Assembly: GCF_014490485.1 (NCBI RefSeq)
Contig: NZ_JACTVA010000023.1
Span: 1 to 64,000, forward strand
From: Teichococcus aerophilus
GTDB taxonomy: Bacteria; Pseudomonadota; Alphaproteobacteria; Acetobacterales; Acetobacteraceae
Reading direction: 5' to 3'
DNA length: 64,000 nucleotides
Shown: one piece after another, positions 6,003 through 64,000 of the stretch
Numbering within the stretch: the stretch's first letter is position 1
Layout: each line of letters opens with the position of its first letter
The notes under the pieces: generated by a model
Told to the model about the DNA's origin: nothing
Seen by the model: only the letters and a program-made list of their open reading frames with translations
The model's database searches: none
Position numbers and translations under genes: made by a program

Positions 6003-7007
6003 ATGTACAATCGCCTGCATGCGGACGAAGCGCTGGGGCCGGCCGAGATCTCCACCGGCCACCTGCCTTCCGCCGAGATGGTGACGTCGCTGGTGCAGGA
6101 AGCGCATGAACGCTACCGCACGGTCACGGACGGCAAGGTGGCGGACTATATTCCGGCACTGGCCGCGGTGCCGGCGGACCTGTTCGGCCTCTGTGTCGTC
6201 AGCGTCGGTGGCCATGTGTTCTCGGCGGGAGACATCACGCGGGAATTCTCCATCCAGAGCATCTCCAAGCCCTTCGTCTTCGCCCTGGTCTGCCAGGCAC
6301 TGGGTGGTGGGCAGGCGCGGCAGAAGGTCGGCGTCAACAACACCGGCCTGCCCTTCAACTCGGTCATGGCGATCGAGCTGAACCAGGATCGCACCATGAA
6401 CCCGATGGTGAATGCCGGCGCCATCGCCACCACCAGCCTGGCGCCGGGCGATACGGCGGACGCCCAGTGGCGCTTCATCCACGAGGGCCTGTCGAGCTTC
6501 GCCGGGCGGGAGCTGACCATGGACCAGGAAGTCTATGAGTCCGAGGCCGCGACCAACCAGCGCAACCAGGGCATCGCCCGCCTGCTGCAGAGCTACGGAC
6601 GCATGTACAGCGATCCGCTGCAGGCGACCGACGTCTATACGAAGCAATGCTCGCTCAATATCACCGTCAAGGATCTGGCGGTGATGGGCGCGACGCTGGC
6701 CGATGGCGGCGTCAACCCGATCACCCGGGAACGCGTGGTCGATGCGGATCGCTGCAAGCGCGTCCTCGCCGTGCTGGCCACCGCCGGGCTGTACGAGCAG
6801 TCAGGCGACTGGCTGTACGAGGTCGGCCTGCCGGGCAAAAGCGGCGTCAGCGGCGGGCTGGTGACCATTTCCCCCGGCAAGGGCGGCCTCGGCACCTTCG
6901 CGCCGCCGCTGGATGCCGCTGGCAACAGCGTGCGCGGCCAGCTGGCGACCAAGTTCCTCTCCGAGCGCCTCGGCCTCAACCTGTTCGCCTCGAAGCCCGA
7001 GGCCTGA
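6003..7007 (+). CDS. glsA: Glutaminase
   Basis: The enzyme hydrolyses glutamine to glutamate and ammonia in the cytoplasm. The 334-aa product has the serine-dependent glutaminase fold: the S-x-x-K motif SISK (S86, K89) after FSIQ, then KVGVNNTGLPFNS, NPMVNAGAIATTS, and the C-terminal glycine-rich GKSGVSGGLVTISPGKGGLG that closes the active site. The length is slightly above the usual 305-310 aa because of N-terminal residues. A strong AAGGAGG ribosome site fixes the start. It heads a same-strand run with an exporter and an asparaginase, which suggests a unit for deamidating imported amides. Confidence in the enzyme name is high; the in vivo role is inferred. Confidence 0.95.
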   Translation: MYNRLHADEALGPAEISTGHLPSAEMVTSLVQEAHERYRTVTDGKVADYIPALAAVPADLFGLCVVSVGGHVFSAGDITREFSIQSISKPFVFALVCQALGGGQARQKVGVNNTGLPFNSVMAIELNQDRTMNPMVNAGAIATTSLAPGDTADAQWRFIHEGLSSFAGRELTMDQEVYESEAATNQRNQGIARLLQSYGRMYSDPLQATDVYTKQCSLNITVKDLAVMGATLADGGVNPITRERVVDADRCKRVLAVLATAGLYEQSGDWLYEVGLPGKSGVSGGLVTISPGKGGLGTFAPPLDAAGNSVRGQLATKFLSERLGLNLFASKPEA

Positions 7008-7063
7008 GGCAGGCGGCGCCGCATGACCCCACACCAGACACGCAACCAGAAAGAGAGCCGGTC

Positions 7064-8713
7064 ATGACAACCACGGCCATTCCCTCCCTGACGGAGGAAC
7101 AGGCTGGCTGGGCGCCGATGATCGCCATCGCGCTCGGCCAGGCCCTCATGTCGTTCAACGTCGCCTCGCTGCCGGTGGCGCTGAGCGGCATGGTCGCCAG
7201 CTTCAACGTGCCGCCGACGACGGTGGCGACGGGCATCGTCATGTACTCGCTGGCGGTGGCCGGCCTTGTCATGCTCGGCGCCAAGCTGACGCAACGCTTC
7301 GGCGCGCTGCGGGTGTTCCGCGTCGTCGTCGCCGTGTTCGGCGTCGCGCAGGTGCTGATGACGTTCAGCCCCACTGCGACCACCATGCTGATCGCGCAGG
7401 GCCTCAGCGGTGCGGCGGGCGCGGCGCTGGTGCCATCGCTGGTGGCGCTGATCGCGCATAACTACAGCGGCAAGCAGCAGGCCACGGCGCTCGGCGCGCT
7501 CGGCTCGGCGCGTGCCGCGGCGGGCGTGCTGGCCTTCCTCATCGGCGGCGTGCTTGGCACCTTCATCGGCTGGCGGCCCGCCTTCGGCATCCTCATCGTG
7601 ATGTCCGGCGTGGTGTTCATGCTCAGCTTCCGCCTGAAGCCGGATGCAGGCCGGCCGGACGTGCAGATCGACATCGTCGGCGTGGTGCTGGCGGCGCTGG
7701 CCATCATCATGATCAGCTTCGGCTTCAACAACCTGAACCGCTGGGGCCTCGGCATCGCCACGCCGGGCGCGCCGTTCAACCTGTTCGGCCTTTCTCCCGC
7801 GCCGGTGATGATCGTCCTCGGCATCGTCATCATGCAGGCCTTCCTGATGTGGACGCGCAAGCGCCAGGAAGCCGGCAAGACCCCGCTGCTGGACCTGCGC
7901 GTCATCGACTCGCCGTATGAGCGCGCGGCGGTCTACGCCATGTTCACCGTGGTGGCGCTGGAAGCGGCGCTGAACTTCTCCGTACCGCTCTACATCCAGA
8001 TCGTGCAGGGCCGCACGCCGCTGGCCAGCGCCATCGCGATGATGCCGTTCAACCTGTCCGTGTTCTTCTCGGCCATGCTGATCGTCCGGTTCTACGACAA
8101 GCTCTCCCCGCGCATGATCGGCCAGATCGGCTTCAGCCTGTGCACCATCGCGCTGATCTGGCTGTCCTGGGTCGTCCGCAATGACTGGAGCGAGATCCCC
8201 GTCCTGTTCGGCCTCGTCGTCTTTGGCATCGGCCAGGGCTCGCTGGTCACGCTGCTGTTCAACGTGCTGGTCACCGCCTCGCCGAAGGAACTGGCGGGCG
8301 ATGTCGGCTCGCTGCGCGGCACCACCGGCAACCTGGCGGCCGCTGTCGGCACCGCGGTCGCCGGGGCGCTGCTGGTCGGCCTGCTGAGCGCCGGCATCTT
8401 CAGCAGCCTCGCCTCCAACCCGGTCATCCCGCCCTACATCCAGAGCCAGGTGAACCTGGACAGCGTGAACTTCGTCAGCAACGACCGCCTCTACGCCGCC
8501 CTGCAACAGACGACGGCGACGCCGGTGCAGGTGGAGGAGGCGATGCGCATCAACACCGAAGCCCGCCTGCGCGCGCTGAAGATCGGCCTGCTGATCATGG
8601 CCGGGCTGGCGCTGGTGGCCATCCTGCCCGCCAGCCGCCTGCCGGGTTACAAGCCGGGTGAGCTGCCCGATCCGTCACCGGTCCCGGGCACGGTAGCACC
8701 GAGGACGACATGA
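7064..8713 (+). CDS. MFS transporter, DHA2 (EmrB/QacA-like) family
   Basis: This is a 549-aa polytopic membrane protein with about 14 predicted transmembrane segments, the count typical of the drug:H+ antiporter-2 branch. It contains a long non-polar first helix (MIAIALGQALMSFNVASLPV) and the loop TQRFGALRVFRVV, equivalent to the MFS motif A region. The start is the ATG at 7064; a longer frame begins inside the glutaminase gene and is a shadow. It is 56 bp behind glsA and overlaps the asparaginase gene by 4 bp (ATGA), so the three are probably co-transcribed. That context hints at export or exchange of an amino acid or amide, but no substrate can be read from the sequence. Confidence 0.9.
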   Translation: MTTTAIPSLTEEQAGWAPMIAIALGQALMSFNVASLPVALSGMVASFNVPPTTVATGIVMYSLAVAGLVMLGAKLTQRFGALRVFRVVVAVFGVAQVLMTFSPTATTMLIAQGLSGAAGAALVPSLVALIAHNYSGKQQATALGALGSARAAAGVLAFLIGGVLGTFIGWRPAFGILIVMSGVVFMLSFRLKPDAGRPDVQIDIVGVVLAALAIIMISFGFNNLNRWGLGIATPGAPFNLFGLSPAPVMIVLGIVIMQAFLMWTRKRQEAGKTPLLDLRVIDSPYERAAVYAMFTVVALEAALNFSVPLYIQIVQGRTPLASAIAMMPFNLSVFFSAMLIVRFYDKLSPRMIGQIGFSLCTIALIWLSWVVRNDWSEIPVLFGLVVFGIGQGSLVTLLFNVLVTASPKELAGDVGSLRGTTGNLAAAVGTAVAGALLVGLLSAGIFSSLASNPVIPPYIQSQVNLDSVNFVSNDRLYAALQQTTATPVQVEEAMRINTEARLRALKIGLLIMAGLALVAILPASRLPGYKPGELPDPSPVPGTVAPRTT

Positions 8714-51753: not shown

Positions 51754-52377
51754 TCAGGCCAACCCGGCCAGCCAGTTCTTGCTCAGCGCCACATCCATCT
51801 GCGTCAGGCCATGGCCGGCAGGGAGTTCCTTCTGCGTCACCGTGGCACCGCCGGCCCGCAGTTGCTCCGCCAGCAATTGGCTGGAGGCAGGCGGGATGAT
51901 CGGGTCCGCTACGCCGGAGAGCATCAGCACCGGCTTCCCGCCCAAGGCCACCTCCGGGGGCTGCCGCAGCGGCGGCATGGCGCGCAGCAGCACGGCGCCG
52001 GCCAGCGCCTCCGGCCGCAGCAGCAGCAGCGCCGCCGCGATATTGGCGCCGTTGGAGAAGCCGAGCGCCACCGGGGCCGGCAGGCGGTATTGCTGCCGCG
52101 CAGCGGTGATGAAGTCGGCCAGTTCATGGGCCCGGCGGCGCACATCGTCCTCGTCGAACACGCCCTCCGCCATACGGCGGAAGAAGCGCGGCATGCCGTT
52201 CTCCAGCACTTGGCCGCGGGGCGAGAGCAGCGCGGCGCCCGGCGCCACAGCCTGGCCCAGCGGCAGCAGGTCGTTCTCGTCCCCACCGGTGCCGTGCAGC
52301 AGCAGCAGCGGCGGCAGGGCGGCGTCCCGTGCGGGTTCGAAGCGGTGGATGAAGGCCAGGTCTTCGGTCGTCGTCAT
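51754..52377 (-). CDS. mhqD: Alpha/beta hydrolase (phospholipase/carboxylesterase, MhqD-like)
   Basis: This 207-aa serine hydrolase has LLLLHGTGGDENDLLPLG (oxyanion region), the nucleophile elbow GFSNGAN, the aspartate in SGVADPIIPP and the histidine in PAGHGLTQMD. It is the second gene after an MhqO-like ring-cleavage dioxygenase, the same pairing as MhqO/MhqD in Bacillus, which protect against quinones. It probably hydrolyses a ring-cleavage product or an ester. The gap to the upstream gene is 57 bp. The symbol is used by analogy and a general carboxylesterase role is possible. Confidence 0.82.
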   Translation of the reverse strand: MTTTEDLAFIHRFEPARDAALPPLLLLHGTGGDENDLLPLGQAVAPGAALLSPRGQVLENGMPRFFRRMAEGVFDEDDVRRRAHELADFITAARQQYRLPAPVALGFSNGANIAAALLLLRPEALAGAVLLRAMPPLRQPPEVALGGKPVLMLSGVADPIIPPASSQLLAEQLRAGGATVTQKELPAGHGLTQMDVALSKNWLAGLA

Positions 52378-52434
52378 GGGATCTCTCCTTCGCGCCCCGC
52401 CGCCTCGTCGGGCAGCGGGGCCGGGAATGGAAGG

Positions 52435-53358
52435 TCAGGCCAGCTCGGGCAGCGTCGCCTTGATGCTGTCGCGGTGCCGCTCCAGGAAGTCCGGCAGCTT
52501 CAGCGCCTGGCCCAGCGTCTCGGACGGCTCATCCACCGCGAAGCCGGGGATATCGGTCGCGATTTCGAACAGCACGTGGCCCGGCTCCCGGAAGTAGACG
52601 GAGCGGAAGTAGTTCCGGTCCTTCTGCTCCGTGGTTTCGATGCCGTGGTTGGCGGCCAGCTTGCGCACCATCTCGGCCTCCGCCGCATCATCGGCAGCGC
52701 GGAAGGCCAGGTGGTGCACCGAACCGCGCCCCAGCCGCGCCGGCAGGAAGCCACCGACACCCCGCAGGTCGACGATGCCGCCCACCTTGGTGCCGGGCGC
52801 CTGGTAGCGGATGGTACCGTCTTCCCGCGCCGCCTCGGCGAAGCCGAAGATGTCCGAGAGGATGGCGCCGGTAGCCTCCGTCTTGTCCAGCATCAGGCTG
52901 ACGCCGTGAAAGCCGCGCAGGGCGAACTCGGCGGGGATCTCGCCATTATCCCAGGCGGGCTCGGCCTCGACGCCGGGCAGGCCGACCAGGGCCAGGCGCA
53001 TGCCGTCCGGGTCCTTGAAGGTCAGCACGGTCTCGCCGAAGCGCTGCACCCGGTCCACGCCATAAGCGGTCAAGCGCTGCATCCAGTAGCCGATCGCACC
53101 CTGCGGGATGCGGAAGCTCGTCTCCTGCAACTCGCCGGCGCCGGCACGGCCGGGCGCGGCGTTCTCCCAGGGGAAGAAGGTGAGGATGGTGCCCGGGCTG
53201 CCGGCGGCGTCGCCGTAATACAGGTGGTAGGCGCCGGGATCGTCGAAATTGACCGTCTTCTTCACCAGACGCAGCCCGAGGGTGCGGGTGTAGAAGTCGA
53301 GGTTCCGCCGGGCGCTGCCGGCGATGGCGGTCACATGATGGATGCCGTTCTGGGTCAT
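52435..53358 (-). CDS. mhqO: VOC-family ring-cleaving dioxygenase (MhqO-like)
   Basis: This 307-aa protein has two glyoxalase-like (VOC) repeats. The first starts NGIHHVTAIAGSARRNLDFY, with KKTVNFDDPGAYHLYYGD, and the second contains LGRGSVHHLAFRAADDAAEA and FREPGHVLFEIATDIPGFAV. H and E residues in these segments are the expected Fe(II) ligands. It matches YdfO/YkcA/MhqO-type hydroquinone dioxygenases in length and motifs. I start it at 53358, after GGAGACC; a long upstream frame is not family sequence. A perfect palindrome at 53447-53462 lies in its promoter, so an unseen regulator is likely. Confidence 0.87.
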   Translation of the reverse strand: MTQNGIHHVTAIAGSARRNLDFYTRTLGLRLVKKTVNFDDPGAYHLYYGDAAGSPGTILTFFPWENAAPGRAGAGELQETSFRIPQGAIGYWMQRLTAYGVDRVQRFGETVLTFKDPDGMRLALVGLPGVEAEPAWDNGEIPAEFALRGFHGVSLMLDKTEATGAILSDIFGFAEAAREDGTIRYQAPGTKVGGIVDLRGVGGFLPARLGRGSVHHLAFRAADDAAEAEMVRKLAANHGIETTEQKDRNYFRSVYFREPGHVLFEIATDIPGFAVDEPSETLGQALKLPDFLERHRDSIKATLPELA

Positions 53359-53462: not shown

Positions 53463-53723
53463 CGACGCATTGCAAGCAGGTGCGGTGGCCGATAGACCAC
53501 CGCAGTTCCTGCGGAACGGAAGCCAGGACCGGCGCACGCAGCCTACCGCAAAGACGAGATGAACCCGGCTTGGCTTGGAAGAGTATGGCGCTTGCCCGGC
53601 CGTGCTGAACGTCGGTCTGCTCCTGCGCTGCGCCGCAGGACGGCCCTCTCCAACCCATCGCTACCACCGTTCGCTGGATGCAGCGCGCAGGCTCGATACG
53701 CAGAACCCTCCCTTGACGCATCT

Positions 53724-53739
53724 ATTAGAACGTTCCATT
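53724..53739. promoter_or_regulatory. LacI-type operator 1, upstream of the LacI gene
   Basis: ATTAGAACGTTCCATT matches the consensus ATTGGAACGTTCCAAT at 14 of 16 positions and is centred on AACGTT. It lies 29 bp before the regulator's ATG and just downstream of a TTGACG hexamer, in the position for autorepression. Confidence 0.75.
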
Positions 53740-53767
53740 GTCGGCGTCGGAAACCCAGACCTGAACG

Positions 53768-54778
53768 ATGCAACGTGTTAGAATCAAGGATGTCGCGCGC
53801 GAGGCAGGTGTAGCCCTGTCCACGGCCGCGTTGGCGCTGCGGGATGATTCGCGGCTTCGCGAGGAAACCCGCCGTGTGGTGCGCGAGGCCGCCGCCAGGC
53901 TTGGCTATGTGTATGACCGCTCGGCCGCCATGATGCGCTCCGGCAAGTCCCACACCATCGGCCTGCTGGTCTGCGAGATCACCAACCCCTTCTACGCGGA
54001 GCTGACCGCCGGCATCGAGGAAGCGCTCGACGCCGCCGGCTACGTGACGATGCTGGCCAACACAGCAGAATCACCGACGCGGCAGCGCCGCATGCTGGAA
54101 CGCTTCCGGGAACAGCCGGTCGATGGCGTCATCATGATGCCGGCCTCCGGCACGCCCCCGGGCCTCATCGACGAGCTGGAACACTGGGGCCTGCCGCATG
54201 CCACGGTGGTGCGCGGCTTCCGCCGCGGGGCGCATGCGGGCCCGGACAACCGTGCGGGCACGAAGATCGCGACCGAACATCTGCTGCGGCTGGGGCATCG
54301 GCGAATCGCCTTCCTCGGCGGTGCGGCAAAGAACTCCGTCAGCACCGGCAGGCTTGAAGGCTATTCCCGCGCCATGGCCAAGGCGGGGCTGACGCCGCAG
54401 CATCTCTCCTGCCCCACCGAGATCGGCGTCGCCGCCGCGCTGGCGCAGGCGCTGCCGCTCAGTGGCCCGACCGCGCTGGTCTGCTTCAACGATTCCGTCG
54501 CCTTCGGCGCCACGCTGGGCCTGTTGCGCGGCGGCCGCCTGCCGGGCCGCGACGTGGCATTGACGGGCTTCGACGACGTCCGGGAAGCCGCGGTGTGGTA
54601 TCCGCGGCTCACCAGCGTCGGCGTCTCCTTGAAGGCATTGGGGCAGGCGGCGGCGCGGGTGCTGCTGCAACGCATCACCAATCCTGACAGCCCGCCGCAG
54701 CGGGAAATCCTGCGGCCCTCGCTCGTCATCCGTGAATCCTGCGGCGCATCCAGGATGGAGAATATGCGGATCGCGTAA
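53768..54778 (+). CDS. LacI-family transcriptional regulator
   Basis: This 336-aa repressor has the N-terminal LacI helix-turn-helix and hinge (RIKDVAREAGVALSTAALAL at 5-24, then REETRRVVREAAARLGYVY). A periplasmic-binding-like effector domain follows (SHTIGLLVCEITNPFYAELT, GHRRIAFLGGAAKNSVSTGR, GRDVALTGFDDVREAAVWYP). No clear ribosome site precedes the ATG. It is the first gene of the catabolic unit. Four copies of a 16-bp palindrome in this unit's promoters are typical LacI operators, so I infer it controls all these genes and itself. The effector is unknown, probably the transported compound or a derivative. Confidence 0.93.
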   Translation: MQRVRIKDVAREAGVALSTAALALRDDSRLREETRRVVREAAARLGYVYDRSAAMMRSGKSHTIGLLVCEITNPFYAELTAGIEEALDAAGYVTMLANTAESPTRQRRMLERFREQPVDGVIMMPASGTPPGLIDELEHWGLPHATVVRGFRRGAHAGPDNRAGTKIATEHLLRLGHRRIAFLGGAAKNSVSTGRLEGYSRAMAKAGLTPQHLSCPTEIGVAAALAQALPLSGPTALVCFNDSVAFGATLGLLRGGRLPGRDVALTGFDDVREAAVWYPRLTSVGVSLKALGQAAARVLLQRITNPDSPPQREILRPSLVIRESCGASRMENMRIA

Positions 54779-54832
54779 GTCTGCCGTGCCTTGCCTGTCC
54801 AAGAAGAAGTAAAGAATCGGGAGAAACATCCG

Positions 54833-55984
54833 GTGCCAGACACCAACATGCCGGCTGGCGTGTCGGAGTGGCATGTCGCCCTGCGCGACGCCGCCCGCCG
54901 CTTCGCCGATGACGAGATCGCCCCCCTCGCCGTCGAGCTCGATGAGACGGAGCAATATCCGGCGGAGCTGTACCGGAAGCTGGCCGAGGCCGGTTTGTTC
55001 GGCATCAGCGTACCCGAGGAACTGGGCGGCGCCGGCGCCGACGTCCTTGCCTATGCGATGGTGATGGAGGAACTTTCGCGCGGCTACGCCTCCGTCGCCG
55101 ACCAGGTCGGGCTGGTGGAGCTGCTGGGCACGCTGCTGACCCGCCATGGCACCCCGTCGCAGCAGGAGCGCTATCTGCGCCCGCTGCTGAAGGCCGAGCT
55201 GCGCTGCGCCTATGCGCTGACGGAGGCCGAGGCGGGCTCCGACCTCGCCGGGCTGAAGACGCGTGCGCGCCGCACGGCGGATGGCTGGGTGCTGGATGGC
55301 GCCAAGCTGTGGATCCACAACGCACCCGTCGCCGATTTCGCCGCCGTACTGGCCCGCACGGACCCGGAGGCCGGGCATCGCGGCATGTCGATCCTGCTGG
55401 TGGATCTGAACAGCCCCGGCGTGACGCGCGACCGCAAAGAACACAAGATGGGCCAGCGCGCCTCGCAGGTCGGCGGGCTGCGCTTCGACAACGTACAGGT
55501 GCCGGCCGACGCGCTGCTGGGCGAGGAGGGGCGCGGCTTCCACATGATGATGTCGGTGCTCGACAAGGGCCGCGTCGGCATCGGCGCGCTGGCACTCGGC
55601 ATCCTGCAGGCGGCACTCGAGGACAGCATCGATTACGCCAAGCAGCGCCGGCAATTTGGCCAGGCCATCGGCGACTTCCAGGCGGTGCAGTGGATGATCG
55701 CCGACATGGCGAAGGATGCGCATGCGGCGCGGTTGATGATTCTGCACGCTGCGCAAATGCTGGATGGCGGCGGCCGCGCCACGTTGGAAGCCAGCATGGC
55801 GAAGTGCTTCGCTTCGGACGCCGCCGTTAGCCGCACCGCCGATGCGGTACAGATCCATGGCGGCTCCGGCTACATCCGTGGCGTGCGGGTGGAGCGGCTG
55901 TTCCGGGACGCCAAGATCACGCAGATCTACGAGGGCACCAACCAGATCCAACGCATGATCATGGCGCGGAGCCTGTTGGCATGA
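54833..55984 (+). CDS. Acyl-CoA dehydrogenase
   Basis: This 383-aa FAD enzyme performs alpha,beta-dehydrogenation of an acyl-CoA. Domains run in the usual order: an N-terminal helical domain, a middle beta domain with CAYALTEAEAGSDLAGLKTR and KLWIHNAPVADF, and a C-terminal helical domain with YAKQRRQFGQAIGDFQAVQW. IYEGTNQIQRMIMARSLL at the end holds the conserved glutamate and FAD-contact residues. I favour a GTG start at 54833, 9 bases after GGGAG; an ATG at 54848 is also possible. It overlaps the SDR gene by 4 bp. It is the first catabolic gene after lacI, so it likely acts on the imported acid once activated to a CoA ester. No CoA ligase is in view. Confidence 0.92.
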   Translation: MPDTNMPAGVSEWHVALRDAARRFADDEIAPLAVELDETEQYPAELYRKLAEAGLFGISVPEELGGAGADVLAYAMVMEELSRGYASVADQVGLVELLGTLLTRHGTPSQQERYLRPLLKAELRCAYALTEAEAGSDLAGLKTRARRTADGWVLDGAKLWIHNAPVADFAAVLARTDPEAGHRGMSILLVDLNSPGVTRDRKEHKMGQRASQVGGLRFDNVQVPADALLGEEGRGFHMMMSVLDKGRVGIGALALGILQAALEDSIDYAKQRRQFGQAIGDFQAVQWMIADMAKDAHAARLMILHAAQMLDGGGRATLEASMAKCFASDAAVSRTADAVQIHGGSGYIRGVRVERLFRDAKITQIYEGTNQIQRMIMARSLLA

Positions 55985-56757
55985 GCGGCTTGTCCGGACA
56001 CCGCCCGGTGGCGCTGGTCACCGGTGGCCGGCGCGGCATCGGCCGTGCCGCCTGCGTCGCCCTGGCCGGGCGGGGCTTCGACATCCTGATCGCCGACATC
56101 GCGGAGGATGGCGCGGCGGAGACGGCGGCCGAAGTGCGTGCGGCCGGTGGCGAATGCGCGTTCCGCCAGCTGGACATCGCCGACCAGGCCAGCCACACGA
56201 CGTTCGTGGAGGATGCCTGGAGCCTGACAGGCGGCATCGACTGCCTGGTCAACAATGCCGGCGTCGGCGCCCTGAAGCGCGGCGACCTGCTGGACGTCAC
56301 GCCGGAATCCTGGGACCGCGCCATGGGCGTCAATGCCCGTGGCAGCTTCTTCCTCACCCAGGCAGTGGCACGCCGGATGGTGGCGGGGGATGCGTCGGGG
56401 CCGCGCAGCATCGTCTTCGTCTCCTCCGCCAATGCGGTGCTGGCCTCGCCGGACCGCGGCGAATACTGCGCCTCCAAAGCCGCCATCTCCATGCTGGTGA
56501 AGGTCTTCGCGCTGCGGCTGGCGGAGCACGGCATCGCCGTGCACGAGGTCCGCCCCGGCGTCATCCGTACCGACCTGACCGCCCCGGTGGCTGAGGCCTA
56601 TACACGCCGCATCGCGGACGGGCTCTCACCGATCCGCCGCTGGGGCGAAGCCGAGGATATCGGCCGCGCCATCGCCATGCTGGCAGCGGGCGACCTGCCC
56701 TTCAGCACCGGCGACGCCCTGCATATCGATGGCGGCCTGCATCTCGGCCGGTTGTAA
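55981..56757 (+). CDS. Short-chain dehydrogenase/reductase (SDR, 3-oxoacyl reductase-like)
   Basis: This 258-aa NAD(P)-dependent oxidoreductase has the TGGRRGIG cofactor motif, LVNNAGVGAL, the serine in VFVSSANAVLAS and the catalytic YCASK. DALHIDGGLHLGRL closes the fold. It is coupled to the acyl-CoA dehydrogenase gene by ATGA overlap. In a beta-oxidation-like sequence it would oxidise a 3-hydroxyacyl-CoA to the 3-oxo compound. Annotation pipelines will probably call it FabG-like; a fatty acid synthesis role is unlikely here. Confidence 0.9.
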   Translation: MSGLSGHRPVALVTGGRRGIGRAACVALAGRGFDILIADIAEDGAAETAAEVRAAGGECAFRQLDIADQASHTTFVEDAWSLTGGIDCLVNNAGVGALKRGDLLDVTPESWDRAMGVNARGSFFLTQAVARRMVAGDASGPRSIVFVSSANAVLASPDRGEYCASKAAISMLVKVFALRLAEHGIAVHEVRPGVIRTDLTAPVAEAYTRRIADGLSPIRRWGEAEDIGRAIAMLAAGDLPFSTGDALHIDGGLHLGRL

Positions 56758-56780
56758 CGCCCCTCCCGCAAGGAAGCACC

Positions 56781-57242
56781 ATGCCCGATACACGCTTGCA
56801 CTTCGAGGACGTCGAAGTGGGGATGCGCTGGCAGACCAGCGGCGTCCAGGTCACCGAAGCGCATCTCTTCGCCTTTGCCGGCCTGTCCGGTGACTTTTAC
56901 GAAATCCATGTGGATGACGAATACGCCCGCGCCCAGGGCTATCCCGGCCGCATCGCCCACGGCCTGCTCGGGCTGGCCATGGCGGACGGGTTGAAGAACC
57001 GGGCGGAGACCCGGCTGGCCGCCATCGTCTCCCTCGGCTGGCGTTGGCGCTTTACCGGGCCGATCTTCATCGGCGACCGGTTGCAGGCGGAGATCCACAT
57101 CACCCAGCTGCGGCCGACCCGGCATGCCGAGCGTGGCATCGTCACCCTGGCTTTCGCTCTGCGCAACCAGCGGGACGAAACGGTGCAAGAGGGCGAGAAC
57201 GATATGATGATCCATCGCCGGCTGGCCAGGGCGGCTGAATAG
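56781..57242 (+). CDS. MaoC-family (R)-specific enoyl-CoA hydratase-like
   Basis: This 153-aa hot-dog protein has the hydratase-2 type catalytic stretch (AFAGLSGDFYEIHVDDEYAR, with Asp and His) and YPGRIAHGLLGLAMADG. AAGGAAG precedes the ATG. It follows the SDR gene by 23 bp and completes the run of acyl-CoA dehydrogenase, SDR and hydratase. It is only distantly similar to the MaoC at 37616 and belongs to a different subgroup. Confidence 0.88.
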   Translation: MPDTRLHFEDVEVGMRWQTSGVQVTEAHLFAFAGLSGDFYEIHVDDEYARAQGYPGRIAHGLLGLAMADGLKNRAETRLAAIVSLGWRWRFTGPIFIGDRLQAEIHITQLRPTRHAERGIVTLAFALRNQRDETVQEGENDMMIHRRLARAAE

Positions 57243-57303
57243 CAGAGGCCGGGAGGGCTGCGGCACCGGCCACCGCATTTCTCTGTCGTCGTACAACGGA
57301 ATA

Positions 57304-57319
57304 ATTGGAACGTTCCGAT
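57304..57319. promoter_or_regulatory. LacI-type operator 2, upstream of the binding-protein gene
   Basis: ATTGGAACGTTCCGAT matches the consensus ATTGGAACGTTCCAAT at 15 of 16 positions and lies 37 bp before the start codon at 57356. It suggests a separate promoter for the binding-protein gene under the same repressor. Confidence 0.8.
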
Positions 57320-57355
57320 GTTGCTGATATCGTCCTCCCTGTGGAGGAAACAAAC

Positions 57356-58969
57356 ATGACCATTATGGCGATAAGCCGTCGTGACCTGACACGCCTGCTG
57401 GCGGGTGGCGCCGCCGCGCTCGCACCCCTGGGCCATATCGCGGCACAAGCCCAGAGCCGGCGCGACACTCTGGTGATCGGCCTGGACACCAGCGACACGG
57501 TGACCTTCGACCCGGTGCGCCAGGCGCAATACACACCGCCCATGACTCTCGCTGCGTGCTACGACACGCTGATGACCTTCGCGCCTGGGGACTACATCAA
57601 TCCCCGCCCGCTGCTGGCGACGAAGTGGGAACGGCGCCCGGGCGGCAATGGTTGGCGCTTCACCCTGCGCCAGGGCGTCAAGTTCGCCAGTGGCGCGCCG
57701 CTGACGGCGGAGGACGTCAAGTTCAGCTTCGACCGGCTGATCGGCATGAAGGAACAGACGCAGGTCTACATCAAGTCGGTGGACCGGGCGGAAGTGGTGG
57801 ACGACCACACGGTCGACCTGATCATGAACGCGCCCAACGCGCCGATCCTGCCTATCCTCTGCAATCCCGCCTGCGCCATCATGGAGAAAGCCGCCCTGCT
57901 CAAGAACGGCGCCGTCGGCGGCCCGGATGCGCGGGAGCAGGATAAGGCGACCGACTGGCTCAACGGCAACAGCGCCGGCAGCGGCCCGTTCCGCCTCGTC
58001 CGCTGGGAACGCAATTCGCAGATCATGCTGCAGCGCAACCCGAATTACTGGGGCACGCCCTCGCCGTTCGAGCGCGTCGTGATCCGCCACCTGTCGGACA
58101 GCGCCGCGCAGCTGCTGGCGGTCCGCCGTGGCGACGTGCATGCCGCCTTCAACCTGATCCCCGAGCACATCGCGGCGCTGCAGGCCGAAGCCAGCGTGCG
58201 CATCGACAAGCTGCCCAGCCTCGACCACGTCTACATGGCGGTGACCGAGAACCCGGCGGCCAACCCGGCGCTGGCGAAGAAGGAAGCCCGCCACGCCATC
58301 GGCCATGCCATTGACTATGACGGCATCCTGAACGGCCTGCTGGGCGGCGCCGCCACCCGCGCGGCGCACTTCCTGCCGATCGGCGTCACTGGCAGCACGC
58401 CGGAAGTCGCCAAGGAAGTCGCGTTCCAGACCAACCTGGACAAGGCCAGGCAGCTGCTGCAATCCGCCGGCCTGGCTGATGGGTTCGAGATGGAGATCGC
58501 CTACGGCAATGCCGCCGTGGCCGGCGTGTCCTACCAGGTGCTGGCGCAGAAGATCCAGGCGGATCTCGGCCGCGTCGGCATCCGGGTGCGGCTGAACCCG
58601 ATGGACCAGGTGAACCTGCGCACCACCTACACCACCGGCAAGATGCAGGGCGGCGTGCTGACCTTCTGGAACCCGCCCGCCGTTTCCAACGACCTCTGGG
58701 CCTCGGCGGTGGTCGAGCGCGTGGCGAAGCGCGTCGGCTGGGACGTGCCGGCGGACATGACCGCCCTGGTCAAGCGCGCATCGGAAAGCCAGAACCAGGA
58801 TGAAGCCGCCTCGCTGTGGATCGAGTGGCAGAAGCGTGTGGTGGACCAAGCCAACCACTTCATCCTGTTCCAGCCGACCTACCAGATCGGTGTCCGCAAG
58901 ACGATCAAGGACTTCCCGCTGACGGCCGCCGGCTGGCAGCTGGACATGGGCGCCGTCACCCTGGCTTGA
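57356..58969 (+). CDS. Peptide/nickel-type ABC substrate-binding protein (SBP family 5)
   Basis: This 537-aa exported protein has a twin-arginine-like leader (SRRDLTRLLAGGAAALAPLG) and family 5 motifs: QAQYTPPMTLAACYDTLMTF, RFTLRQGVKFASGAPLTAED, GSGPFRLVRWERNSQIMLQR and ARHAIGHAIDYDGILNGLLG. GGAGGAAA precedes the ATG at 57356. Unlike the three orphan paralogues, it has permease and ATPase genes nearby (60941 onward), separated by two minus-strand genes. All share the operator palindrome, so it is most likely the receptor for that transporter. Confidence 0.92.
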   Translation: MTIMAISRRDLTRLLAGGAAALAPLGHIAAQAQSRRDTLVIGLDTSDTVTFDPVRQAQYTPPMTLAACYDTLMTFAPGDYINPRPLLATKWERRPGGNGWRFTLRQGVKFASGAPLTAEDVKFSFDRLIGMKEQTQVYIKSVDRAEVVDDHTVDLIMNAPNAPILPILCNPACAIMEKAALLKNGAVGGPDAREQDKATDWLNGNSAGSGPFRLVRWERNSQIMLQRNPNYWGTPSPFERVVIRHLSDSAAQLLAVRRGDVHAAFNLIPEHIAALQAEASVRIDKLPSLDHVYMAVTENPAANPALAKKEARHAIGHAIDYDGILNGLLGGAATRAAHFLPIGVTGSTPEVAKEVAFQTNLDKARQLLQSAGLADGFEMEIAYGNAAVAGVSYQVLAQKIQADLGRVGIRVRLNPMDQVNLRTTYTTGKMQGGVLTFWNPPAVSNDLWASAVVERVAKRVGWDVPADMTALVKRASESQNQDEAASLWIEWQKRVVDQANHFILFQPTYQIGVRKTIKDFPLTAAGWQLDMGAVTLA

Positions 58970-58974
58970 AGCCT

Positions 58975-59000
58975 GTCCGCTGCATAACCGTGCAGCGGAC
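58975..59000. terminator. Bidirectional hairpin terminator
   Basis: GTCCGCTGCA, loop TAACCG, TGCAGCGGAC is a perfect 10-bp stem in the 89-bp gap between the convergent binding-protein and hydroxyacid dehydrogenase genes. Confidence 0.7.
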
Positions 59001-59058
59001 ATCCTCTCAGTTCTCCAGGGCCGCGTGATCGTCCCCCGGTTGCTTCAACTTGAGGCGG

Positions 59059-60036
59059 TCACGCTTTCAGCAGGCGCTTCAAGCGGTGGGCAGCTTCGGC
59101 GTTCACCGCCCCCTCGGGCATCTGGCCCGCCGCCAGGGCGGCGATCTGCCGCACCGTGTCCATCGCCTGGTGCTCCGTCGCCGTCGGCGTCAGGCCGCCA
59201 ATATGCGGCGTAGCGATGACGTCTCGCCTTCTGGCCAGGCTTGGCGGCGGCATCTGGTCCGGCGCCATGCCGACATCCAGCGCCGCGCCGGCCAGGTGGC
59301 CGGAATCCAGCGCCTCCTCCAGCGCCGCCTCATGCACCAACTGCCCACGGGAAAGATTGACCAGGAAGCTGCCGCGCTTCATCTGCGCGAACCGCGCCGC
59401 ATTTAACAGCTTGTCCGTCTCCGGCGTCGATGCGGCAAGGCAGACGACGAAGTCCGCCGCGCCCAGCACTTCCTCCAGCGATGCGCTGCCTTCCGGCAGG
59501 CCGGGGTCGTGCACGACGATGCGCATGCCGACGCCGCGCGCCATCTCCGCCAGCCGCCGGGCGATGCGGCCATAGCCAATCAGCCCCAGCGTGCTGGCGC
59601 TCAGCTGGCGGCCCATCGCCGCCTCCGGCACCGTGCCGGCGTGGAACACTTCCGCCGCGCGGGTCATGCCCCGGGCGAGGTCGATCATCATGCCCAGCCC
59701 CAGCTCGGCCACCGCGTCGGTGAAGCCGGGCGTCGCCCGCGTTACCAGCACACCGTGGGCGGAGGCGGCGTCGACATCGATGGTGCTGATATCGACGGCG
59801 CCGCGCAGGAACGCCACCAGGTCCGGCGCATGCGCGAAGGTCTCCGCCGTGCCGGGCGTGGCGCGGAAGGCGACGATGGCCTGGCAACCGGCGGCGGCCT
59901 CGGCCAGCGCCTGGCCCTGCAGTACCTTGCCGCTGGTGTTGCGCACCACCTCGGCCACCTGTTGCAGGGCGGCCAGCGGTCGGTCACCGTAATAGCCGGC
60001 GAAGGCTTCTTCCGTATGGGTCAGGTACACCTTCAC
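59059..60036 (-). CDS. D-2-hydroxyacid dehydrogenase-family protein
   Basis: This 325-aa NAD-dependent protein has the Rossmann motif GLIGYGRIARRLA, the catalytic arginine in LVNLSRGQLVHEAAL and the histidine in ATPHIGGLTP. The position that normally holds the catalytic glutamate (DVFxxEP) reads DVGMAPDQMP, a variant I recognise from a subgroup in alphaproteobacteria, so its substrate may differ from standard lactate or phosphoglycerate dehydrogenases. The start is a GTG overlapping the enoyl-CoA hydratase stop by 4 bp. It is in a two-gene minus-strand operon inside the LacI-regulated unit. Confidence 0.87.
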   Translation of the reverse strand: MKVYLTHTEEAFAGYYGDRPLAALQQVAEVVRNTSGKVLQGQALAEAAAGCQAIVAFRATPGTAETFAHAPDLVAFLRGAVDISTIDVDAASAHGVLVTRATPGFTDAVAELGLGMMIDLARGMTRAAEVFHAGTVPEAAMGRQLSASTLGLIGYGRIARRLAEMARGVGMRIVVHDPGLPEGSASLEEVLGAADFVVCLAASTPETDKLLNAARFAQMKRGSFLVNLSRGQLVHEAALEEALDSGHLAGAALDVGMAPDQMPPPSLARRRDVIATPHIGGLTPTATEHQAMDTVRQIAALAAGQMPEGAVNAEAAHRLKRLLKA

Positions 60037-60800
60037 CGGGAGAACTCCGCCTGCCGCTTCTCGTTGAAGGCACGGATGCCTTCCAGATGGTCGCCCGCGC
60101 TGAAGCACAGCACGTTCATCTCATTCTCATAGGTCAGGCCGGCACTCAGCGGCGTCTCCATCGCGGCGCGCAGCGCGGCCTTGACGGATTGCACCGCCAC
60201 GGTGCTGAAGCCCGCCAAGCGCTGTGCCACAGCACGGGCGCGCGGCAGCAACTCCTCCGCGCTGACCACCTCGTGCACCATGCCGAGCTTCAGGGCCTCC
60301 GCCGCGTCGATCTGCTCGGCCAGCATCAGCAGCCGCGTGGCCGCCGCATGGCCAATCAGGCGGGGCAGCAACTGGGAGGCACCGCCGCCGCCCACCCAGC
60401 CGCGCTGCACTTCAGGAAAACCGATCCGCGTATTGGTGGCGGCGATGCGGATATCGGCGCCCAGCGCCGTCTCCGCCCCGCCGCCCAGCGTCCAGCCCTG
60501 CAGGGCGACGACGACCGGCTTGCGGATCATCCTGACCGCCGCCGCATACTCGATGCGGTTACGGAAATGCCAGGCGGAGGGATAGGCCGCGAGCGCGTTC
60601 AGGTCGCTGCCGGAGCAGAAGGCCTTCTCGCCCGCCCCATGCAGCAGTACGGCGCGGACCTCGTCGTCCTCGTCCACCGCGCGCGCATGGGCGGCGAGCT
60701 GGCGGGCCATCGCGGGCGTCATGGCATTGTGCTTTGCAGCACGGTCCAGCAGCAACTCCGCGATCCCGTCCACGACGGTCAAGCGCACTTCACCCTGCAT
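60033..60800 (-). CDS. Enoyl-CoA hydratase/isomerase family protein (crotonase)
   Basis: This 255-aa crotonase-fold protein has GEKAFCSGSDLNALAAY (oxyanion hole side), ALQGWTLGGGAETALGADIR (second oxyanion strand and first glutamate position) and GFPEVQRGWVGGGGASQLLP (second glutamate position). It hydrates or isomerises an unsaturated acyl-CoA. GGAGGAAA precedes the ATG. Its promoter region carries two LacI-type operators shared with the divergent permease operon, so it belongs to the same regulon. With a MaoC hydratase also present, the two hydratases may act on different intermediates. Confidence 0.9.
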   Translation of the reverse strand: MQGEVRLTVVDGIAELLLDRAAKHNAMTPAMARQLAAHARAVDEDDEVRAVLLHGAGEKAFCSGSDLNALAAYPSAWHFRNRIEYAAAVRMIRKPVVVALQGWTLGGGAETALGADIRIAATNTRIGFPEVQRGWVGGGGASQLLPRLIGHAAATRLLMLAEQIDAAEALKLGMVHEVVSAEELLPRARAVAQRLAGFSTVAVQSVKAALRAAMETPLSAGLTYENEMNVLCFSAGDHLEGIRAFNEKRQAEFSR

Positions 60801-60835
60801 ATGTTTCCTCCCCAGGCCCTCTGCGTGGCCGGCCG

Positions 60836-60851
60836 ATTATAACGTTCCAAT
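60836..60851. promoter_or_regulatory. LacI-type operator 3, divergent promoter region
   Basis: ATTATAACGTTCCAAT matches the consensus at 14 of 16 positions. It lies 36 bp from the enoyl-CoA hydratase start codon and is the hydratase-proximal member of a pair 46 bp apart centre to centre. Confidence 0.75.
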
Positions 60852-60881
60852 AACACGCCGGGGAAGCCCACAAAGGGCTTG

Positions 60882-60897
60882 ATGAGAACGTTCCAAT
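60882..60897. promoter_or_regulatory. LacI-type operator 4, divergent promoter region
   Basis: ATGAGAACGTTCCAAT matches the consensus at 14 of 16 positions. It lies 43 bp before the permease start codon and is the permease-proximal member of the operator pair. Confidence 0.75.
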
Positions 60898-60940: not shown

Positions 60941-61951
60941 ATGTCACGCTACATCGCCAAGCGGCTGCTCGCCGCCGCGGTCATGGCGATCCTGGCCAGC
61001 GCCGTCATTTTCCTGATCGCCAACCTCGTTCCGGGCGATCCGGTGCTGGCGCAGCTGGGCGACATCGCGGCCAGCGACCCGGCGACCGTCGCGCGCTGGC
61101 GCGCGAAGTGGGGCCTGGATCTGCCGCTGTGGGAACGCTACGGCATCTTCCTCGGCGGGCTGGTCCAGGGCGACTTGGGCATGTCCATCGCCACGCGCCG
61201 CCCGGTGCTGGACGATATCATCCAGTACGCGCCGGCGACGCTGGAACTGGCGACCGTCGCCTTCCTGCTGTCGCTCGCCATCGGTATCCCGCTCGGCATC
61301 GCCGCGGCGGTGTGGCGGGATGGCTGGGTAGATTCGCTGGCGCGCGGCCTGTCGCTGCTCGGCGTCTCCGCCCCCACCTTCTGGCTCGCCTTCATCATGC
61401 TCGCCATCTTCTATGGCGGGCTGGAATGGGCGCCCGGCCCGGGGCGGCTGGACCCCATCGCCTTCCCGCCGGAAGGCCCGACCGGCCTGTTCCTGTTCGA
61501 CAGCCTCTGGGCCGGTGACTGGGAGACCTTCACGGATGCCGCGGCGCATCTCGTGCTGCCCTCCATCGTGCTTGCCGCCGCCACGATCGGCCTGATCACC
61601 CGCACCACCCGCGCCGCGATGCTGGACAGCCTGCAACAGGATTACGTCCGCGTCTCCCGCGCCAAGGGCCTGCGCGGCTGGACGGTGGTCATGCGCCACG
61701 CCCTGCCCAACGCCCTGGTGCCGGTGGTGACGCTCGGCGGCCTCGCCTACGCCAACCTGCTGGCCGGCGCGGTGATGACGGAGACGGTCTTCGCCTGGCC
61801 CGGCCTCGGCCGCTACACCTTCCGCTCGGCGGCGGCGCTGGATTTCCCGGCCATCGTCGGCATCACCCTGGTCGTCTCCATCACCTACCTGCTGGTCAAT
61901 CTGGTGGTCGACATGTCCTACGCCATTCTGGACCCGAGGGTGCGTCGATGA
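60941..61951 (+). CDS. Peptide-type ABC transporter permease (DppB-like)
   Basis: This 336-aa inner-membrane protein has the DppB/OppB pattern MSRYIAKRLLAAAVMAILAS, LVPGDPVLAQLG and the EAA loop DYVRVSRAKGLRGWTVVMRH ahead of ALPNALVPVVTLGG. The last span is VVDMSYAILDPRVRR. AGGAGGAA precedes the ATG. It overlaps the DppC-like gene by 4 bp. With the binding protein at 57356 it should import the regulon's substrate. Confidence 0.93.
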   Translation: MSRYIAKRLLAAAVMAILASAVIFLIANLVPGDPVLAQLGDIAASDPATVARWRAKWGLDLPLWERYGIFLGGLVQGDLGMSIATRRPVLDDIIQYAPATLELATVAFLLSLAIGIPLGIAAAVWRDGWVDSLARGLSLLGVSAPTFWLAFIMLAIFYGGLEWAPGPGRLDPIAFPPEGPTGLFLFDSLWAGDWETFTDAAAHLVLPSIVLAAATIGLITRTTRAAMLDSLQQDYVRVSRAKGLRGWTVVMRHALPNALVPVVTLGGLAYANLLAGAVMTETVFAWPGLGRYTFRSAAALDFPAIVGITLVVSITYLLVNLVVDMSYAILDPRVRR

Positions 61952-62820
61952 GCGCGACCACCGCCACGCCGGTCGTGCTGCCGCCGACCCGCTCCCGCCT
62001 GCGCCGCCGCTGGAAGCGCTACGGCCCCGCCTGGATCGGCGGCGCCATCGTCCTGGCCTGGATCCTCGTCGCCATCCTGGCGCCCTGGATCGCGCCGTAT
62101 AAGCCCGACGCGGTGGATGTCACCATCCGCCTGCAGCCGCCCAGCTGGGCGCATTGGATGGGCACGGACACGCTGGGGCGGGACGTCTTCTCCCGCCTGT
62201 TGCACGGGGCGCGCCTGTCGTTGCTGGCGGGCTTCTCCGTCGTGCTGCTCGGCGCGGCGCTCGGCACCGCCATCGGCATCATCGCCGCCTGGGCGCGCGG
62301 TTGGTGGGATGAAGGGCTGATGCGCTTCACCGACCTGGTGCTGTGCTTCCCGCCCATCATTCTGGCGTTGGCCATCGCCGCCGCGCTGGGCATCGGCCCG
62401 GTCAACACCATCCTGGCCATGCTGGTGGTGTGGTGGCCGAAATTCGCCCGCCTCGCCCGCGCCCTGGCGCTGGTGCAGCGCAGCCAGGAATATGTCGAAG
62501 CCGCCACGGTGCTCGGCCTGAAGCCGCGCCGCATCCTGGTGCGGCACATTCTGCCCAATACGCTCGGCCCCTTGGCCGTGCTGGTGACGCTGGATCTCGG
62601 CAACGCCATCCTGACCTTCGCCGGCCTGTCCTTCCTCGGCCTCGGCGTCGTGCCGCCGATCGCGGAATGGGGCTCCATGGTGGCCGAGGGGCGAGAGCTG
62701 ATCGAACAATGGTGGGTCGCGGCCTTCCCGGGCCTGGCCATCCTCACCGTCGTCGTCGGCTTCAATTTCTGCGGCGACGGGCTGCGCGACTGGCTGGACC
62801 CGAAGGGCCGCAGCCGTTGA
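61948..62820 (+). CDS. Peptide-type ABC transporter permease (DppC-like)
   Basis: This 290-aa permease has an N-terminal span (AWIGGAIVLAWILVAILAPW), HWMGTDTLGRDVFSRLLHGA and the EAA loop EYVEAATVLGLKPRRILVRHI, all standard for DppC/OppC. It ends in CGDGLRDWLDPKGRSR. It pairs with the DppB-like protein. The ATPase gene follows; a TTG overlapping its stop is an alternative start for that gene. Confidence 0.93.
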   Translation: MSATTATPVVLPPTRSRLRRRWKRYGPAWIGGAIVLAWILVAILAPWIAPYKPDAVDVTIRLQPPSWAHWMGTDTLGRDVFSRLLHGARLSLLAGFSVVLLGAALGTAIGIIAAWARGWWDEGLMRFTDLVLCFPPIILALAIAAALGIGPVNTILAMLVVWWPKFARLARALALVQRSQEYVEAATVLGLKPRRILVRHILPNTLGPLAVLVTLDLGNAILTFAGLSFLGLGVVPPIAEWGSMVAEGRELIEQWWVAAFPGLAILTVVVGFNFCGDGLRDWLDPKGRSR

Positions 62821-62849: not shown

Positions 62850-64000
62850 ATGGACGGCTTTATCCCGCCCCACGCCCTGCAGCCTGTGCCCGACGTGCCG
62901 GTGCTGGAGGTGAAGGACCTGCACACGGTCTTCATGACCGACAACGGTCCCATCCATGCCGTCGACGGCGTCTCCTTCACCGTCGGACCGGGGGAGACGC
63001 TCGGCATCGTCGGTGAGAGCGGCTCGGGCAAGAGCGTCACCGCCCTGTCGCTGATGCGGCTGCTGGAGGAGCCGGCGCGGATCGTCGGCGGCTCCATCAC
63101 CTTCCAGGGCAAGGACGTGCTGGCCATGTCCCGCAGCGAGCTCGCCGATTGGCGTGGCGACCGCGCGGCGATGGTGTTCCAGGACCCGATGACCGGCCTG
63201 AACCCGGTCATCCGCATCCTGAAGCAGGTGACGGAGCATATCGTCTCCCACGGCCGCATGAAGCCGGCGGCGGCGAGGACGCGCGGCATCGAGCTGCTGC
63301 GCCGCATGGGCGTGGCGGCGCCGGAGCGCGCGGCGGCCTCCTTCCCGCATGAATTCTCCGGCGGCATGCGCCAGCGCGTGATGATGGCCATCGGCGTCGC
63401 CAACGACCCGGCACTGCTGATCGCGGATGAGCCGACCACGGCGCTGGACGTCACCATCCAGGCGCAGATCCTCGACCTGCTGCGCGGGCTGAACGAGGAG
63501 TTCGGTACCGCCATCGTGCTGATCAGCCACGATCTCGGCGTCATCGGCACCGTCTGCCGTCGCGTCGCGGTGATGTATGCCGGCGAGGTGGTGGAGGAAG
63601 CCGTCACCGCCGAGGTGCTGGCCGACCCACGCCACCCCTATGCTTGGGCGCTGGTCAATGCCGTGCCGCGGCTGGATGCGCCCACCGGCGCCCGGCTGAC
63701 CAGCATCGAGGGCACGCCGCCCGACGCGCTGAACCCGCCCAGGGGCTGCCGGTTCGAGCCGCGCTGCCCGTTCAAGATCGCCCGCTGCGCCACGGACCAT
63801 CCGCCGCTGATGGAAGTGGCGCCCGGACGCCGCGCCCGGTGCTGGGTGACGGCCGATGGCCGCAGCCTGCCGCGCCCAACCCTGCCCGCCGCCGCCGAAG
63901 CCGAAATCCCGCTCCTGGCGGAAGCGCCGCTGCTGGAAGCGCGCAACGTCGAGAAGCACTTCGTGCTGCGCCGGCCCTCCTTCATGAAACCGGGCCTGAC
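62850..64000 (+). CDS. Peptide-type ABC transporter ATP-binding protein, probable DppD-DppF fusion (partial)
   Basis: The frame is open to the window edge (383 codons visible). The first ABC domain is complete: VGESGSGKS (Walker A), QDPMTGLNP (Q-loop), FSGGMRQR (signature), LLIADEPTTALD (Walker B) and SHDL (H-loop). The DppD-type C-terminal cysteine cluster (CRFEPRCPFKIARC, later RCW) follows. It does not stop at the usual DppD length of about 330 residues: a linker leads into LLEARNVEKHFVLRR, the typical start of a DppF-type domain. So it is probably a tandem ATPase. I take the ATG at 62850, with AAGGAC upstream; a TTG at 62817 is possible. Confidence 0.9.
   Translation, partial: MDGFIPPHALQPVPDVPVLEVKDLHTVFMTDNGPIHAVDGVSFTVGPGETLGIVGESGSGKSVTALSLMRLLEEPARIVGGSITFQGKDVLAMSRSELADWRGDRAAMVFQDPMTGLNPVIRILKQVTEHIVSHGRMKPAAARTRGIELLRRMGVAAPERAAASFPHEFSGGMRQRVMMAIGVANDPALLIADEPTTALDVTIQAQILDLLRGLNEEFGTAIVLISHDLGVIGTVCRRVAVMYAGEVVEEAVTAEVLADPRHPYAWALVNAVPRLDAPTGARLTSIEGTPPDALNPPRGCRFEPRCPFKIARCATDHPPLMEVAPGRRARCWVTADGRSLPRPTLPAAAEAEIPLLAEAPLLEARNVEKHFVLRRPSFMKPGL

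Follow-up and report, generated by a model that had tools for sequence, protein, structure and literature searches.

The 64 000-nt stretch of the Teichococcus aerophilus genome considered here (the window; G000:C57:1-64000, from an assembly of 140 contigs and 5.66 Mb) carries a gene for a LacI-family regulator and four copies of a 16-bp CG-centred palindrome with consensus ATTGGAACGTTCCAAT, located in front of this gene and of genes that follow it. We think it highly probable that the adjacent LacI protein has these palindromes as its operators; it would act as a local, autoregulated repressor of a probable acid-catabolism cluster.

The palindromes start at positions 53724, 57304, 60836 and 60882. 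Candidate operators were delineated by palindrome match and promoter alignment: O1 (ATTAGAACGTTCCATT, 53724..53739) upstream of lacI; O2 (ATTGGAACGTTCCGAT, 57304..57319) upstream of a solute-binding protein gene; O3 (ATTATAACGTTCCAAT, 60836..60851) between divergent hydratase (ech) and permease genes; and O4 (ATGAGAACGTTCCAAT, 60882..60897) upstream of the permease operon. They differ from the consensus at 2, 1, 2 and 2 positions, respectively (14, 15, 14 and 14 of 16 positions matching); all coordinates and match levels given in an earlier sequence-only reading of this DNA, with 14-15 positions kept, turned out to be correct. All four sites are in promoter positions, as the same reading had it. 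The distances to the start codons are 28 bp for lacI, 36 bp for the binding protein, 35 bp for the hydratase (minus strand) and 43 bp for the permease.

Dinucleotide shuffles of the window gave 0.08 expected matches at ≤3 mismatches, with 4 observed, and 0 of 100 shuffles reached 4; as the consensus was derived from the same four sites, independent tests weigh more than this count. At ≤2 mismatches the whole genome contained the 16-mer in four places only, all of them the window's own, within 7.2 kb, while 0.17 places were expected from the window base composition (68.6% GC) applied to the 5.66 Mb length. The scan added no further site, and frequent matches elsewhere are ruled out. At ≤3 mismatches there were five places, with 3.2 expected on the same basis; the fifth (3 mismatches, G000:C133:5921) was rejected as an operator, since it is situated inside a coding frame, LysR-type by eye.

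Conservation was studied in 58 genomes, 17 from the same genus (own genome included) and 41 from outside it. A LacI ortholog (≥77% identity or self; E below 1e-160) was present in 7 of the 17 same-genus genomes, and all seven had two to four sites each (≤2 mismatches; 20 in total), at regulon genes. The ten same-genus genomes without the ortholog comprised eight with zero sites and two with one weak site each; none had two. One of these weak sites (G007) was discarded, being inside a frame that is TetR-like by eye; the other (G015) is about at the apparent start of a frame resembling, by eye, a thiamine pyrophosphate enzyme, and a promoter position is possible. Two perfect 16-mers found before lacI in relatives' genomes are independent of the consensus derivation.

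Distinct genomes with the ortholog number eight, the window's included, in addition to a metagenome-assembled genome (MAG; L013/G151). The seven others are Pseudoroseomonas deserti, P. coralli, P. aestuarii, Acetobacteraceae AT-5844, Roseomonas sp. 18066, Roseomonas sp. E05 and Plastoroseomonas hellenica (L006-L012, in this order G010, G012, G016, G006, G011, G003 and G205). Promoter alignments across the eight genomes showed the operators as the longest conserved blocks within diverged promoters; 29 sites all retain AACGTT, with flanks diverging. TTGAC together with the O1 operator is kept in 8/8 lacI promoters (shifted by one base in P. hellenica), AACGTTC of O2 in 7/7 ortholog promoters (P. 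aestuarii does not have the gene), TATAACGTTC of O3 in 8/8 and AACGTT of O4 in 6/8. Single-site losses aside, the same genes have the palindrome in front of them in seven other genomes too, as the sequence-only reading had led one to expect. A CG-centred palindrome thus stands before the regulator and its neighbours in relatives, with no other own-genome site at ≤2 mismatches, the pattern of a local regulon.

The regulator itself (53768..54778, + strand, 336 aa) has an N-terminal LacI helix-turn-helix (PF00356, 41.1 bits with a cut-off of 27) and a periplasmic-binding-protein-like effector domain (PF00532, 110.8 bits; PF13377, 107.6 bits; all three above cut-off). The recognition helix, VALSTAALAL, is identical in all eight ortholog proteins; the TVSR helix, a trait of the dominant subgroup that does not define the family, is replaced by TAAL. 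Hinge residue AA-54 is hydrophobic, as it is in the family, and is Met in all eight orthologs. The best NCBIfam models are MalI and RbsR; MalI scored 227 bits, the cut-off being 310, and all NCBIfam matches were under curated cut-offs. Among solved structures, the best matches by sequence were PurR, a ribose operon repressor and an ancestral factor of the LacI type; the MalI-, RbsR- and PurR-type proteins are relatives of the window LacI rather than demonstrated orthologs. An even, CG-centred palindrome is typical of LacI-family operators according to the RegPrecise survey (PMC4052901). The identification of the palindromes as LacI operators, also made in the sequence-only reading, holds up well with a Pfam-confirmed LacI neighbour, this family-typical form and conservation. 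That the protein binds at these sites we infer from the conservation and from co-variation of an operator base with a residue of the protein.

This co-variation involves recognition-helix residue AA-15 (numbered as in PMC2978694; residue 17 of the window protein, matched by the helix motif and by the PurR sequence) and operator position NT-2. All eight orthologs combine Leu at AA-15 with AACGTT; nearer homologs (38-49% identity) have mostly Arg at AA-15, and their sites, where found, are mostly TTTAGATCGATCTAAA-like (ATCGAT). Sites were called by a rule blind to NT-2, with a cut-off reached by 5 of 1140 shuffled upstream stretches; a site was found in 24 of 57 homologs. For the 24 test rows, L049 (an Arg fragment) was dropped and L037 (an ortholog just under the cut-off) was added. 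Twelve of 13 Arg proteins had no A at NT-2 and all 11 non-Arg proteins had at least one, i.e. residue and base agreed in 23 of 24 rows; AA-55 was Arg in all 24. In a tree from which the DNA-binding domain had been left out, there were at least three residue changes and at least four base changes, and in three independent pairs the base followed the residue in 2.9 of 3 on average, never in the opposite direction. A class-wide search (385 genomes) added six distant homologs, one of which passed the operator rule. AA-15 and NT-2, we conclude, tend to vary in step, Leu going with AACGTT and Arg, mostly, with ATCGAT; this goes beyond the sequence-only reading.

The ortholog in the MAG (88% complete) is 70% identical to the window protein and has Arg at AA-15. 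Upstream of lacI it has TTTAGATCGATCTACT, upstream of the binding-protein gene GTTAGAACGATCCAAC and upstream of the permease gene ATTATATCGATCCAGC, the last aligned with O4; T occupies NT-2 in 5 of 6 MAG half-sites versus 0 of 58 in the eight Leu genomes. We may be dealing here with a natural case of operator change between orthologs. In the tree the MAG ortholog falls inside the Leu group, and a Leu-only clade is not rejected (approximately unbiased test, p-AU 0.13), so that the change could have gone either way.

Several elements of the promoters could be recognized by eye. TTGACG at 53713 and a possible -10 box (CATTGT) at 53736 flank O1, and the ATTATA end of O3 reads TATAAT on the minus strand, a possible -10 box of ech; a -10 box at this place would account for the imperfect symmetry of O3 at that end.

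The following observations weigh against the assignment of the sites to the window LacI as its operators. Met takes the place of the usual Leu as the hinge residue inserted at the central CG. O4 was lost in two of the eight genomes (P. deserti and Roseomonas sp. 18066), both of which retain O3. As many as 33 of the 57 homologs, many of them distant, had no site by the NT-2-blind rule; for L049 (Arg) two sites of different kinds tie, and L084 (Arg) has A in one half-site. The independent pairs are only three, giving a sign test p of 0.25, short of significance. No promoter came out of a strict sigma-70 consensus scan covering the three intergenic regions, and the -35 and -10 boxes were assigned by eye and by conservation only. 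Finally, TTTGGAACGTTCCAAA (L109:5205-5220, in G030) is located between a non-orthologous LacI-type gene (29% identity) and a MocA-like gene. With a near-identical palindrome beside a different LacI, a match to the motif does not by itself identify the binding protein; possibly, this operator candidate came to resemble ours by convergence.

The G030 site is one of 11 found outside the genus in 8 of the 41 genomes (G021, G022, G030, G032, G041, G051, G055 and G056), none having a close ortholog. Four of the 11 were inspected: two of the three G022 sites and one G032 site were inside called frames, and the G030 site was intergenic. In G469:C9 (L111), from another family of the class, a LacI gene (41% identity) with two similar sites upstream lies no more than 3 kb from genes for a CoA-transferase (41%) and a hydratase (35%); the link between LacI and CoA-transferase is, therefore, not confined to the genus.

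One could argue that some other LacI-family member encoded in this genome uses the four sites as operators, with the window lacI being merely one of its targets. The genome does offer 29 first-look candidates for the LacI protein, three of them at E ≤1e-30, and the G030 locus illustrates a non-orthologous LacI next to such a site. We still find this explanation improbable: sites track the presence of the ortholog within the genus (at least two in 7/7 genomes with it, in 0/10 without it), the operator base is associated with the helix residue of the window LacI, and the nearest own paralog (47%, on C100) has a different operator candidate, TTTAGATCGATCTAAA, at that locus only. Upstream of this paralogous lacI (L073:5602-5681, i.e. 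G000:C100:13602-13681) we saw a perfect TTTAGATCGATCTAAA and a weaker copy; a search of the own genome at ≤3 mismatches gave no TTTAGATCGATCTAAA elsewhere. The paralog locus is perhaps a second, single-locus LacI unit.

LacI-family members with dual activator and repressor roles are known, and the sequence is compatible with the window LacI activating, rather than repressing, some of the four promoters. However, O1 in the putative -35/-10 spacer and O3 holding a putative -10 box (both by eye) fit occlusion, and all sites are 28-43 bp from start codons; activation seems to us slightly less probable still than control by another LacI. That the palindromes arose by chance or belong to promoters in general is hardly credible, even though AT-rich promoter stretches in a window of this GC content yield some palindromes and 10 of the 58 genomes have sites with no close ortholog, given the excess of sites within 7.2 kb over the genome-wide expectation and the 29 copies that keep AACGTT despite diverged flanks.

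Returning to operators of the adjacent LacI, we describe the genes that would be under its control. On the + strand, lacI is followed by genes for an acyl-CoA dehydrogenase (acd, 54833..55984; PF00441, PF02771, PF02770), a short-chain dehydrogenase/reductase of PRK12745 type (sdr, 55981..56757; NF009386, 354.5 bits with a cut-off of 250) and a MaoC-like hydratase (maoC, 56781..57242; PF01575), and, behind O2, by a gene for a family 5 extracellular solute-binding protein (sbp, 57356..58969; PF00496, SBP_bac_5). The - strand carries genes for an enoyl-CoA hydratase/isomerase (ech, 60033..60800; PF00378) and a D-2-hydroxyacid dehydrogenase-like protein (59059..60036, GTG start; PF02826, PF00389), the latter sharing 4 bases with the end of ech. 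Divergent from ech, on the + strand, are genes for ATP-binding cassette (ABC) permeases of the DppB/OppB type (permB, 60941..61951; PF00528, PF19300) and DppC/OppC type (permC, 61948..62820; PF00528, PF12911), and a fused double ABC ATPase gene (62850..64000; Pfam ABC ATPase) that is cut by the window end. Past base 64000 (L065:2913-6087, on G000:C57) there follow the rest of the ATPase gene and genes for a CoA-transferase (PF01144), a second MaoC and a DUF993 protein; a TetR-type gene after the DUF993 gene was excluded. The unit would then have about 13 genes, ten in or entering the window and three beyond. The 'about ten genes' of the sequence-only reading are right for the window, the last of them cut, and short for the whole unit, which runs past 64000.

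In the mechanism that we propose, the protein encoded at 53768-54778 would be a local repressor that also controls its own gene. Without ligand, its dimer would cover core promoters (at lacI the putative -35/-10 spacer, at ech the putative TATAAT), thus excluding RNA polymerase. Four transcription units would be repressed: lacI-acd-sdr-maoC; sbp; ech with the hydroxyacid dehydrogenase gene; and permB-permC-ATPase-CoA-transferase-maoC2-DUF993. The repressor would be released by a ligand imported through the ABC importer, or by an early product of this ligand.

What is the substrate? Enzymes for carbohydrates and sugar importers are not among the targets, which include an Opp/Dpp-type importer and CoA-dependent enzymes; because of this composition the substrate is probably not a plain sugar but an organic acid. 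The enzyme models are less specific. The best model for the CoA-transferase is FadX, well under cut-off; the acyl-CoA dehydrogenase is under all equivalog cut-offs, its top two models being acryloyl-CoA reductase and cyclohexane-1-carbonyl-CoA dehydrogenase; shikimate dehydrogenase models match the relatives' AroE-like protein, under cut-off. Of the 9 ortholog loci (MAG included), 7 contain AroE-like and MocA-like genes, six times divergent from the binding-protein gene and in P. aestuarii behind ech. The window genome has no room for them there, and AT-5844 is also without them at this place; both carry the 2-hydroxyacid dehydrogenase gene in their place. The enzyme set (CoA-transferase, acyl-CoA dehydrogenase, two MaoC, ECH, SDR and the relatives' AroE- and MocA-like proteins) suggests a carboxylic acid that is CoA-activated and oxidised, while the MocA-like and AroE-like genes of the relatives would also allow for a polyol-like substrate. 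Our guess, one with clearly less than an even chance of being right, is a hydroxylated ring acid that is activated by CoA transfer. Also less likely than not is a combined scenario, in which the repressor left sugar control for the CoA-dependent catabolism of hydroxylated ring acids (quinate- or shikimate-like) and, between orthologs ∼70% identical, the operators were rewritten throughout the regulon between AACGTT and ATCGAT, a single base pair (NT-2) in each half-site, along with Leu or Arg at AA-15; we mention it tentatively.

In the MAG, mocA and permB (L013:3512-4503 and 6427-7298) gave matches in two frames each, which could be due to sequencing errors or to true breaks. In the window genome, a gene on the opposite strand directly after the end of the permease operon is AroE-like (43% to AroE of the relatives); further downstream (L065:9114-14805) are genes for a binding protein, two oxidoreductases with a MocA-type look, a protein that is amidohydrolase-like by eye and a xylose-isomerase-like TIM barrel. 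On the other side, at 51754-53358, an esterase gene and a VOC-family gene (glyoxalase-like by eye) are divergent from lacI, with no operator nearby. This pair was considered for membership in the regulon and rejected, the VOC start being 365 bp from O1; it also adjoins lacI in AT-5844 and is ∼8 kb from lacI in P. aestuarii.

The P. aestuarii record (G016) has the cluster split between two contigs, one with lacI-acd-sdr-maoC and a perfect palindrome, the other with ech-mocA-aroE divergent from the CoA-transferase gene and two operators between them. A search of G016 at E ≤1e-100 gave no match to the solute-binding protein or the first permease, both of which the remaining 8 of the 9 genomes searched possess; neither the second permease nor the ATPase was at the two loci of G016, no genome-wide search having been made for these two. 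The operators stayed with the regulated genes despite the changed neighbours.

Among the matches listed in searches of open-licence PMC texts, no paper dealt with this regulon. Rhodospirillales, Acetobacter, Roseomonas, CoA, shikimate and quinate gave no match in the main text of the RegPrecise survey (Ravcheev et al. 2014, PMC4052901). With the local LacI regulons described there the system shares an even 16-bp CG-centred palindrome and a site before the regulator's own gene, as well as operators near start codons and adjacent targets. In that survey 96% of LacI groups with a known pathway were assigned to carbohydrate metabolism, whereas the targets here are CoA-dependent enzymes. By its predicted extent, this is a local LacI regulon ordinary in kind, very likely autoregulated, with unusual controlled genes. 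It gives a regulon and a candidate repressor/operator pair for a catabolic cluster of Roseomonas-like bacteria, in a family known mainly for sugars.

The second comparison is with the code of Camas et al. (2010, PMC2978694), where NT-2 is reported to correlate with AA-55, AA-15 and AA-5 in the LacI family. The association of AA-15 with NT-2 seen here agrees with this code. There are two differences: the code, as described there, was built on TVSR helices, while the orthologs have TAAL and their kin TVSL or TASL; and NT-6 is T at our sites, partly by construction as the site rule scores T, and G in Camas et al. Two natural orthologs that differ in their operators, as the window and MAG proteins may do, would bear on the AA-15/NT-2 correlation outside the TVSR subgroup that underlies the published code.

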